Below, piece after piece: positions 7,480-9,316 of a DNA stretch of 64,000 nt. The first letter of the stretch is position 1, and the number at the start of each line of letters is the position of its first letter. The position numbers and the translations under genes are program-made. The stretch lies in assembly GCF_014196925.1 (NCBI RefSeq), contig NZ_JACIEN010000001.1, positions 62,001 through 126,000 of the forward strand, in the 5' to 3' direction. Source of the DNA: Chelatococcus caeni (GTDB lineage: Bacteria > Pseudomonadota > Alphaproteobacteria > Rhizobiales > Beijerinckiaceae). The notes under the pieces were generated by a model, which saw only the letters and a list, made by a program, of their open reading frames with translations, was not told where the DNA came from and ran no database searches.

Positions 7480-7695
7480 ATGCAGAGCATAAATTGGCGT
7501 ACTCCGTCGGCATATAGACACGTCAAAGACCTTCCTGCCGCCGGTTTCGCCTGGGAATATCTTCGTCGTAACGAAGACTATCGCAAAGATGTCGAGCGCT
7601 TCAATCGGACGGGAGCGTTTACGGCAGAAGAGTTGGATACCTTTGCCAGCCGATGGGGGTTGCGATTTCGCACACGACCCCGACGCGCAGCCTGA
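7480..7695 (+). CDS. fseA: FseA-like activator, N-terminal frame (DUF6499)
   Basis: A 71-residue frame starting at ATG 7480 behind GGGAGGA. It carries the DUF6499 'transcriptional regulator-like' domain: W6 and FAWEYLRRNEDYRKD at residues 23-37. In homologous fused proteins the domain runs into DUF2285 through RWGLRF; here RWGLRF occurs at residues 58-63, but the frame then ends eight codons later in unrelated Arg-rich sequence. The DUF2285 domain continues in the +1 frame. This is the arrangement described for FseA of ICEMlSymR7A, made by +1 programmed ribosomal frameshifting and activating the excisionase gene rdfS. I assign the gene by that layout plus the nearby rdfS-like and qseM-like genes. 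Confidence 0.75.
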   Translation: MQSINWRTPSAYRHVKDLPAAGFAWEYLRRNEDYRKDVERFNRTGAFTAEELDTFASRWGLRFRTRPRRAA

Positions 7696-8275
7696 CGGCG
7701 CACCGCCTTTCTGGTCGCCGCATTTCAATCCGCGGGCCATTATTCTGTCACCTGCCGAGCAGAGTGATACCGGTAGCGGGCGGCTGTTCGCTCTCGCTCA
7801 TCTCGATGGCCTGATCCTGCGCCGCGCGCCGGATGGCTGGCACGCAATCTGGCATATCGGTGGGATGGAGCATCAATTCTGGTTGCAACAGGGCGCGATC
7901 GATGCGGCAGCTTTCTATGCTGCAATCCTGCCCATGGACGAGTTCATGGAATTACGCGCCCATGCGGCCCGCCGTCTCTGGCGGTGCCTGACAGGCCGCT
8001 CTCCGGGGTCGGATATTCGCACCATGCCAGCACAACTTCGGCAATGGCACCTTCTGTCGCTGCGGGCGCTGGACGCACGGCTGCATGGCGAAAGCTATCG
8101 CGCCGTTGCCGAAGTCCTGCTCGGTTTCCGTGGCAACAAGGAAGATTTCGAGACTGATCCGCGCAAGAACAAGGCACGTCGTCTTGTTGCCCACGGCATC
8201 AGGATGATGCGCGGGGGCTATCGGCTGCTTTTGCATTATCCGGTCAAGCCGATTCCACGATCAAAAGGCGACTGA
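7670..8275 (+). CDS. fseA: FseA-like activator, C-terminal frame (DUF2285), read by +1 frameshift
   Basis: This frame is open from before 7589 but reads as DUF2285-type protein only from about AHDPDAQPDG (7670). No good independent start is near: an ATG at 7589 would translate DUF6499 DNA in the wrong frame. Joining codon TTT (7666-7668) to GCA (7670) gives RWGLRF-AHDPD and a 264-residue fusion. The C-terminal half, with ALDARLHGESYRAVAEVL and later ARRLVAHGIRMMRGGYRLLL, is the DUF2285 helix-turn-helix-like domain. Known FseA activates rdfS and so ICE excision. A sequencing or mutational frameshift cannot be excluded from one sequence. Confidence 0.75.
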   Translation, partial: AHDPDAQPDGAPPFWSPHFNPRAIILSPAEQSDTGSGRLFALAHLDGLILRRAPDGWHAIWHIGGMEHQFWLQQGAIDAAAFYAAILPMDEFMELRAHAARRLWRCLTGRSPGSDIRTMPAQLRQWHLLSLRALDARLHGESYRAVAEVLLGFRGNKEDFETDPRKNKARRLVAHGIRMMRGGYRLLLHYPVKPIPRSKGD

Positions 8276-8282
8276 GGCGATC

Positions 8283-8579
8283 TCACCGATTCCTGTTTGC
8301 CGCAGCCTGTTCCAGTATTTGCCTGTAACCTTCCCGCGACAGCCATTGGGCGCGTTCCAAATGGCTCTGCCAGCATCGCCGGGTGCGCATCTCATCTGAT
8401 GCCGGATCGCGGTGCAGAACTATTCGCGCCACTTCCTTCCAGTCGGCTTCCTCGGACTTGGCGTCCAGAATACGCAGATAGGTCACAAAGTGCTGCTCGT
8501 CATAGGCGGTGATAACATGGCCGGACGGGGCCAGATCATCCACATCGGGGTCAAGTTCGACGGGTGCTTTCACGGTCAT
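8283..8579 (-). CDS. qseM: QseM-like antiactivator (stand-alone DUF2285 protein)
   Basis: A 98-residue protein converging on the fseA-like gene, seven bases from its stop. The sequence (VELDPDVDDLAPSG, VITAYDEQHFVTYLRILDA, ADWKEVARIVL, then HLERAQWLSREGYRQIL) is the compact DUF2285 form. In ICEMlSymR7A the stand-alone DUF2285 protein QseM binds TraR and FseA and blocks transfer; this gene has the same size class and context, so I propose that role. AAGGAG lies only one base before the ATG; GTG two codons on (8573) gives better spacing and may be the real start. The leader is unusually structured (8584-8811). Confidence 0.7.
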   Translation of the reverse strand: MTVKAPVELDPDVDDLAPSGHVITAYDEQHFVTYLRILDAKSEEADWKEVARIVLHRDPASDEMRTRRCWQSHLERAQWLSREGYRQILEQAAANRNR

Positions 8580-8583
8580 TCTC

Positions 8584-8811
8584 CTTCTTTCAGAAGAGTT
8601 TCTGCGGTTCGCCCCCGCAATAAAACTCTCTGACTCCTGGTGATCGGGGAGTTAGTAACCGTGACTAGACGGCCCCATGGCCTTTAGCTGGAAAGCCTGT
8701 TGCATACGCCACAGGCTCCCCGACCATAGGGTCAAGGAGTATGGTGCCGTCACGGCCGACACCAACCGCTAGTCAGGGGTTACTACGCCCCCGGAGCAGT
8801 GCGTCTGCTCC
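8584..8811 (-). ncRNA. Candidate structured, pseudoknot-capable leader RNA of the qseM-like gene
   Basis: Read on the minus strand this leader holds: a hairpin GGAGCAG/CTGCTCC (8811-8793); a long closing stem made of TAGTAACC (8785-8778) with GGTTACTA (8660-8653) and TGACTAG (8775-8769) with CTAGTCA (8668-8662); an internal hairpin AGCCTGT/ACAGGCT (8717-8694); and TCGGGGAG (8723-8716) inside the closed loop that can pair with CTCCCCGA (8651-8644) directly after the closing stem, which makes a pseudoknot. The pseudoknot and the internal hairpin compete for two bases. A last hairpin, AGAGTTT/AAACTCT with TGCGG/CCGCA inside (8629-8595), stands just before the ribosome site. All stems are perfect as written. 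I match it to no known riboswitch class. Confidence 0.55.
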
Positions 8812-9043
8812 ATCTGTATTCATAGCCGAACTGCGCGCGGATGTCTTGAGCGAATCCGCATCGGCCTCCCTGAGTTGCTGAAATTTCACGTCTTTTCGCG
8901 CTGGCATAGCCCCTTTCGGGGGTGCCGTCTGCGCATAGACGCAAATGCGGCACGCTACACGCCGCCGATCACTTCCCATGGTTCGCCATAGCGCGCCGCC
9001 GTCTCCGGCAGCCGCATCAACCTGACGAACCGGAGGTGATCTC
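8812..9043 (+). other. Gene-free region upstream of the rdfS-like gene
   Basis: No gene is supported here. It must contain the rdfS promoter, the expected target of the FseA-like activator, and probably the start of the opposing qseM-like transcript. On the plus strand there are hairpins CCCCTTTCGGGG near 8910-8921 and GTGCCG/CGGCAC enclosing TGCG/CGCA near 8923-8954. The ribosome site GGAGGTGA sits directly before the rdfS-like ATG. Confidence 0.4.
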
Positions 9044-9316
9044 ATGACCGAGCGCCGCAACACGGAAATACCACCGCGCATGCTGCGCACTCAGGAAGCT
9101 GCGCGTTTCCTTGGCATATCTCTTCGCACACTGGAAAAGCACCGGACCTACGGGACCGGCCCGACCTATCGCAAAATCGGTGGCCGGGTTCTCTACACGG
9201 TCGAGGATCTTCAGGCCTGGGCCGACATCGGCGCACGCAAATCCACCAGTGACAAGGACGCCGGCACGGTCTTTCCGGCGCGCCCCCTGACGCCTGAAGA
9301 GCGGAGCAAGCTCTGA
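9044..9316 (+). CDS. rdfS: RdfS-like excisionase / recombination directionality factor (AlpA/MerR-type HTH)
   Basis: A 90-residue protein with a winged helix-turn-helix of the excisionase family: MLRTQEAARFLGISLRTLEKHR (about 14-35) as the recognition part and YRKIGGRVLYTVEDLQAWAD as the wing and following helix. A strong GGAGGTGA site precedes the ATG. In rhizobial ICEs RdfS directs the integrase to excise the element and heads the operon that leads to traF and the relaxase; the same order is seen here, with repA starting directly after the TGA. The integrase it would assist is not in the window. Control by the FseA-like product is inferred from context. Confidence 0.75.
   Translation: MTERRNTEIPPRMLRTQEAARFLGISLRTLEKHRTYGTGPTYRKIGGRVLYTVEDLQAWADIGARKSTSDKDAGTVFPARPLTPEERSKL

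Follow-up and report, generated by a model that had tools for sequence, protein, structure and literature searches.

A predicted C4-like antisense RNA leader in front of the qseM and traM antiactivator genes of conjugative elements

The leader of the QseM-like antiactivator gene in Chelatococcus caeni is best explained as a self-targeting antisense module of the C4 kind, whose allele-specific guides would exert an element-specific feedback on the antiactivator (we put the probability of this reading at about 0.7). The leader lies on the minus strand of the window, a stretch of 64,000 nucleotides (contig NZ_JACIEN010000001.1, positions 62,001 to 126,000). There, a promoter-like element, an upstream site in two parts (a1 and b1), a three-arm domain carrying two segments complementary to this site (a' and b') and the gene itself follow each other (Table 1). 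An earlier note had proposed that a pseudoknot-capable leader RNA, sensing a ligand or a protein, controls this gene. All pieces that it described are present at the stated minus-strand positions. Its view that the antiactivator gene has a structured RNA leader is borne out, with covarying stems and promoter-like hexamers just upstream of 8811. The claim as a whole is partly supported: control by RNA stands in kind, and its mechanism is revised, because the anatomy and the relatives of the leader (sRNA-Xcc1 and the C4 RNA of phage P1) point to antisense RNA and not to ligand or protein sensing.

Table 1. Features of the leader and of the gene behind it, in window coordinates.
Feature	Position	Strand	Remarks
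Promoter-like element	8819..8847	-	AAGACA 8847-8842, 17-bp spacer, TATGAA 8824-8819
H0, 5' hairpin GGAGCA..TGCTCC	8793..8811	-	Double changes in 2 of 6 pairs; 99.6% of cells paired
a1, upstream site TAGTAACC	8778..8785	-	Covaries with a' (long stem, part A)
b1, upstream site TGACTAG	8769..8775	-	Complementary to b' (long stem, part B)
H2 hairpin	8743..8763	-	Double changes in 3 of 7 pairs; 98% of cells paired
H3 strand CTCCTTGACC	8730..8739	-	Alternative partner of the 5' strand of helix P1
Predicted antisense domain, C4-like / sRNA-Xcc1-like, 88 nt	8638..8725	-	Helix P1, arm 2, arm 3, ACCA tail; predicted 5' end GGTCGGGG
Helix P1, 10 bp	8725-8716 with 8651-8642	-	Closes the 88-nt domain; includes TCGGGGAG 8723-8716 / CTCCCCGA 8651-8644
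ACCA tail of the domain	8641-8638	-	
b', guide segment CTAGTCA, arm-3 loop	8662..8668	-	Complementary to b1; allelic
a', guide segment GGTTACTA, linker before the 3' strand of helix P1	8653..8660	-	Complementary to a1; allelic
H4 hairpin core GCGGGGGCGAACCGC	8604..8618	-	Mark of the transfer-regulator branch
QseM-like antiactivator gene	8283..8579	-	Pfam PF10074, 30.7 bits (cut-off 26.4)

Transcription is predicted from sequence to start near 8811 on the minus strand, and in 62 out of 74 leaders, similar hexamers spaced by 17 nt keep a constant distance to the leader. Site a1 either pairs with a' or occupies the loop of a possible GGGG..CCCC hairpin (8791-8776). An open frame, considered as a candidate leader peptide, terminates at TGA 8775-8773. 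Strand H3 is 98.3% paired yet shows no covariation, and is thus conserved but unproven as a helix. The gene downstream encodes a DUF2285 protein (the Pfam family is now named RovC_DNA-bd, PF10074), whose start in relatives is, by alignment, the codon aligned with GTG 8573-8571. The leader is placed between divergent genes of the transfer region, the neighbour at 9044-9316 encoding an HTH_17 protein. On the plus strand, a Trans_reg_dom frame (PF20109, 7444-7695) is overlapped by a DUF2285/PF10074 frame (7589-8275) in frames 0 and 1; from the sequence, they look like an fseA-type gene that would need a +1 frameshift, convergent with qseM.

A passage of PMC8627217 describes QseC of ICEMlSymR7A as a helix-turn-helix protein encoded next to qseM. 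QseC and the leader would share the same controlled antiactivator gene, qseM. Unlike in ICEMlSymR7A, a scan of the frames next to qseM in the window revealed no gene recognisable as QseC-like, in agreement with the earlier note, and we infer that RNA-level control might replace QseC here.

To compare leaders, we searched with the QseM-like protein and worked with the best 80 out of 153 loci, which belong to many genera of Alphaproteobacteria and to one record named Modicisalibacter. The leader was matched by blastn in 79 of the 80 loci, partially in some. The alignment leaves out eight duplicate leaders as well as L038, which has no upstream DNA; the full domain is missing from L038, L071 and L076, and the 5' part from L022, L044, L047 and L063. 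Across the alignments, the frame is nearly invariant, with two variable blocks on each side. These blocks are the strands of the long stem, both parts of which pair as the earlier note had read them. Among 43 distinct leaders, this stem is 96.2% paired, with 9 of its 15 pairs changed on both sides. Such double changes fill 87 cells, vs. 25.4 in shuffles and 2-14 when the strands are slid, and the covariation score (0.384 vs. 0.131 in shuffles) was reached by none of 500 shuffles. For the b1/b' core (8774-8769 with 8668-8663), all six counted pairs changed on both sides among relatives. In the qseM leaders, helix P1, both arms, the tip of arm 2 and the two upstream hairpins are together 97.7% paired, with double changes in 8 of 39 pairs; helix P1 is nearly unvaried there.

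The variation of the long stem takes the form of discrete alleles. Part A occurs as TAGTAA/TTACTA, TCGAAA/TTTCGA or TGGAAA/TTTCCA, and part B as TGACTAG/CTAGTCA, TCACGAA/TTCGTGA, CTGTTAC/GTAACAG, TGTTGG/CCAACA and others; two of the B alleles are each found together with either main A allele. These alleles are exchanged in an otherwise almost identical sequence: the leader of the window and L001 carry different, compensated alleles and differ at only 3 of 137 other positions, as do L021 and L023 with 1 of 136. In two distinct leaders (L079 and L080), the guides mismatch their own a1/b1. Both agree with L021 throughout the 135 other positions of the alignment, the guide being swapped and the target unswapped, and they are probably natural recombinants. 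In Phyllobacterium phragmitis, the 5' half of two leaders (L044 and L047) is interrupted beside a1 by a sequence that looks like the 3' end of a group II intron; in L044, the remaining part of the leader is found ~1.8 kb upstream.

We then compared the leader with known RNA families. At the gathering level, the Rfam search of the window gave no match. At E ≤ 5, the leader had no match to known riboswitch or cis-regulatory families and a single match overall, RF02221 (sRNA-Xcc1), at 8725-8634 on the minus strand (model positions 1-87 of 87, E = 1.4e-4), with a score of 35.1 bits that is below the gathering score of 53 bits. The outer stem of RF02221 is the helix that the earlier note had taken for a pseudoknot. 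This helix is real, extends to the full 10 bp of helix P1 and closes the C4-like domain, but it is likelier to alternate with the long stem than to coexist with it. Among 10 other qseM loci, 6 scored 31-39 bits against RF02221 and 4 had no match at E ≤ 1. Judged on these matches, the leader is a diverged relative of sRNA-Xcc1, below the family cut-off. For the reciprocal search, a sequence-structure model (R1) was built only from 24 domain sequences of qseM leaders. R1 gave 32 matches at E ≤ 1 in 30 of 75 RF02221/C4 loci (four rows being two places seen in two overlapping loci), had no match in the other 45 and left the C4 of phage P1 unmatched. R1 finds one copy in the window and, at E ≤ 1e-5, has matches in 54 of 397 genomes of the order. 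RF02221 itself is found at E ≤ 0.001 in 37 of 289 genomes of the class (5 over the cut-off) and in none of 14 control genomes. Within a wider family of 70 members, a selected set (69 chosen sources) aligned to the same model that served for the pair counts, 7 of the 10 pairs of helix P1 show double changes and the helix is 98.5% paired; for the whole domain, the figures are 23 of 26 pairs and 97.7%.

The leader shares with sRNA-Xcc1 its three-arm topology over the full length of the model. Most of the other alphaproteobacterial RF02221 matches examined also have a complementary upstream site. However, arm 2 is longer in qseM leaders (8+4 pairs in R1 vs. 6+3 in RF02221), and H4, the hairpin ahead of the ribosome site that had already been noticed, replaces a terminator-like hairpin. 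H4 is present in all 77 qseM loci with a full domain, in 14 of 15 traM loci and in 15 of 36 other loci of the order, vs. none of 18 RF02221-type loci. Conversely, a terminator-like hairpin overlaps the 3' strand of helix P1 in 12 of these 18 loci (1 of 204 control positions), and such a hairpin is seen in 5 of 36 other loci of the order, 0 of 14 qseM loci and 1 of 15 traM loci, further downstream. A 2011 paper reportedly presents, by its title, sRNA-Xcc1 as integron-encoded and transferred by transposons and plasmids. In Xanthomonas, this RNA was confirmed by Northern blot and measured at 88 nt by RACE, according to a passage of PMC2996969.

The architecture of the leader is that of the phage immunity RNA C4. 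The record of phage P1 annotates, in order, a1 and b1 (both putative), C4, a2, b2 and icd, and RF01695 (C4) on phage P1 shows the same layout, with the guide in the loop of the second arm and in the linker. Likewise, the leader presents a1, b1, the three-stem antisense domain and the controlled gene in this order; the closed domain has its guide in the second-arm loop (b') and the linker (a'), and helix P1 opens with GG at its 5' end. In contrast to C4, no a2/b2 was found at the ribosome site of the gene that follows the qseM leader; this leader has its a1/b1 in the possible GGGG..CCCC hairpin, and it is carried by conjugative elements, in front of transfer antiactivators and not of an antirepressor operon. 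In Rfam, C4 and c4-a1b1 (RF03163) share one clan, and neither matched the leader at E ≤ 5. Since the leader lacks some of the features tested for membership, we file it neither under RF01695 nor under RF02221; from its sequence, we consider that it works like C4, as a variant of this kind of antisense RNA. In qseM leaders, helix P1 starts with GG and is followed by ACCA, which we take to resemble the tRNA-like end read by RNase P. By analogy, these ends are suggestive of RNase P processing. Such an end is not general, because in traM leaders helix P1 ends with TTGG or similar and not with ACCA. The C4 and c4-a1b1 motifs are both listed in a part of PMC2864571. Passages of PMC5320573 describe C4 as an RNA that acts in trans and whose helix P1 is cleaved by RNase P at its 5' end (GGW motif), with few guide and target bases setting specificity: b' partly covers ribosome sites, a' confers specificity and a 4-nt difference between phages P1 and P7 limits cross-action.

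The guides match their own upstream region in the wider family too. In most of the sRNA-Xcc1-type loci examined, the arm-3 loop and the linker are complementary to a two-part site located ~35 to 120 nt upstream. For 74 RF02221 hits, the own upstream region gave the best duplex of the 74 in 32 cases and one of the top three in 48. In the set from the order, the own site ranks first for 17 of 36 unique guides (mean -27.1 kcal/mol vs. -20.0 when permuted, sd 0.48), and in the traM set for 12 of 13. For the three groups of R1-found loci, none of 5000 permutations did as well as the own guides upstream. Downstream, own guides were no better than permuted ones (P = 0.81 for traM, 0.39 for the order and 0.86 for RF02221-type loci), and downstream a2/b2 sites were therefore rejected for the qseM/traM branch. 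Also, no second site matching the allele was found in the window or in the DNA retrieved around 79 leaders (up to 3 kb per side), with at most 1 mismatch and parts at most 30 nt apart; a few single-part matches to guides recur elsewhere. In some RF02221 members, downstream a2/b2 sites are visible by eye, and the excess is modest (own site first in 4 of 72, top three in 9 of 72, mean -17.1 vs. -15.2).

A diverged form of the leader is also met before traM on conjugative plasmids. From a plasmid collection, 224 records had a blastn match to the leader, of which 27 cover at least 80% of the query and 183 are typed as conjugative. The RNA was found directly before traM in Ancylobacter pD, Bradyrhizobium ISRA443 and Aminobacter pANY103d; the first was the only one of the three submitted to Pfam, which confirmed Prok-TraM. 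With leader and traM together as query, 375 records were matched, 209 of them with at least 80% coverage. All of the eight further plasmids selected from this search have an R1 match before traM (48.7-58.9 bits), and in the classic Ti plasmid pTiC58 the RNA (150024-150112) directly precedes traM (150171-150479). A TraM profile search in 297 genomes detected six genes over the cut-off, three with the RNA directly upstream; the other three, and one gene below the cut-off, have no upstream RNA at E ≤ 1. The same profile search gave 0 of 385 in the class, a blank that is no proof of absence. The guides of traM leaders are highly variable. As QseM and TraM form separate, unrelated Pfam families that are both antiactivators of transfer, the RNA follows function and not protein family, and the leader of the window belongs to a widespread set of leaders on transfer regulators. 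The family is nevertheless not limited to antiactivators, since an HTH regulator gene on R. etli p42d and, by mechanical frame calls, assorted small proteins follow other leaders. On the Bosea plasmid pOC167, an acyl-homoserine-lactone synthase gene lies at most ~2 kb after the leader (L212 and L214), which from sequence again seems to link the leader to quorum-sensing control of transfer. In A. tumefaciens, a passage of PMC4201532 reports less TraM protein and more TraG in an hfq mutant. This drop is compatible with RNA control of traM, and is no demonstration of it.

Folding predictions bear on how the pairings relate to each other. For the 271 nt from 8830 to 8560, the predicted folding energy is -121.1 kcal/mol (z = -5.23), a value that none of 200 shuffles reached. 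The 17-mer containing both 5' strands occurs once in the window at up to 3 mismatches (0 expected), while the 8-mer of helix P1 alone is not rare (2 in the window vs. 3.9 expected). The internal 7-bp hairpin of the earlier note exists; in relatives, it is 90% paired and shows double changes in 3 of its 7 pairs. Its competitor is a longer arm formed by 8715-8708 and 8681-8674, which matches sRNA-Xcc1 and is 96.8% paired, with double changes in 1 of 8 pairs. Unconstrained, pseudoknot-free folds of the 174-nt leader contain the long stem in 40 of 44 cases, and none of the 44 reaches at least 80% of the helix P1 pairs. Blocking a1/b1 in silico does not bring up helix P1 (0 of 44 folds), and forcing the C4-like fold on the leader of the window costs 13 kcal/mol. 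By comparison, all six isolated domains tested fold with helix P1 closed, although the arms of those from the window and pTiC58 depart from the consensus fold. In these models, the long stem and helix P1 look like alternative states.

Mutually exclusive states would also be expected of a purely cis-acting switch, in which transcription speed, ribosomes, a protein or a ligand chooses between the long stem and helix P1, without any antisense RNA acting in trans. We regard this as the most serious competitor, though an unlikely one. It agrees with the fact that, in the qseM/traM branch, the sole partner found for the guide is in the same molecule, and the terminator-like hairpin over the 3' strand of helix P1 in RF02221-type relatives is attenuator-like. 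However, a cis switch leaves unexplained why the pairing alleles vary in a nearly invariant frame, and why identical guide strings (25-26 nt, arm bases included) occur in none of 155 same-genome pairs from 25 multi-copy genomes. It also sits poorly with the trans action of its relative C4, described in a passage of PMC5320573.

Two other explanations are very improbable. The inverted repeats might act as DNA, by binding a protein or as a single-strand recombination or transfer site, as would suit inverted repeats that are carried by a mobile element and located between divergent transfer-region genes; but the kept pairs include G-U, the leader is homologous to an sRNA confirmed by Northern blot in a passage of PMC2996969, and its strand is the same, and its placement similar, ahead of the qseM and traM start codons. 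A ligand-sensing riboswitch, to which the earlier note leaned in view of a complex fold with alternative pairings ahead of a gene, has hardly any chance when the pairing segments are the most variable parts and the helices are invariant, when sRNA-Xcc1 is the only Rfam match at E ≤ 5 and when, by mechanical frame calls, the genes behind the family differ widely. There is no need to invoke ligand sensing.

The self-targeting antisense reading can be set out as follows. A transcript from ~8811 would contain, in order, a1/b1, the spacer hairpin, the 88-nt three-arm domain, H4 and qseM. As long as this transcript is uncut, the long stem would lock the guide on a1/b1 of the same molecule. A copy of the domain would be cut at the start of helix P1, by RNase P as in phage C4; once freed, it would close helix P1 and expose its guide. 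The freed guide could then pair in trans with a1/b1 of new leaders, provided that they carry the same allele. The result would be an element-specific feedback on qseM, most likely lowering it by analogy with C4, which lowers icd/ant. The brake on transfer would thus be set by the dosage and the allele of the element itself.

In the open-licence literature, we found no description of an RNA leader of qseM or traM and no link between sRNA-Xcc1 and C4, although an earlier notice of either is possible; a single paper there, PMC12189769, mentions both RNAs, within one table. The present reading joins the sRNA-Xcc1 family, the phage immunity RNA C4 and the quorum-sensing antiactivators of conjugation, a link that we did not find in the literature searched. 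It suggests that many sRNA-Xcc1-type RNAs are more than free trans-acting sRNAs with scattered targets, in that their target (a1/b1) is encoded in cis, and that traM and qseM are subject to an additional, RNA-based level of control. As the alleles are discrete and compensated, specificity is directly testable with leader reporters.

Finally, we looked at genomes with several copies. In the multi-copy genomes, the guide fits its own site best in 63 of 80 cases, with 25 expected. In six named genomes with several qseM-type elements, no allele pair is repeated (0 of 10 pairs); heteroimmunity of the qseM type is only suggestive, because chance would give this result with P = 0.17. Between phages P1 and P7, c4 accounts for heteroimmunity. 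More tentatively, conjugative elements of Alphaproteobacteria might be marked by an identity code made of RNA, the guide/target allele before qseM or traM being particular to each element, so that a resident element would silence or reset the antiactivator of an incoming one only if the alleles match. If true, this would be an RNA-based heteroimmunity for ICEs and Ti-type plasmids, similar to that of c4 in P1 and P7. One genome (G502) has seven copies with distinct guide strings (L181 and L194-L199), each followed by a small protein (in most, MADGYNFAADLLTTWRSTADWVK.. or a similar sequence) that could be a multi-copy toxin-like or exclusion family. Another genome, of 1.4 Mb (G094), has thirteen RF02221 matches, all with different guide strings (L085, L104, L106-L109, L111, L113-L115, L118, L131 and L137).
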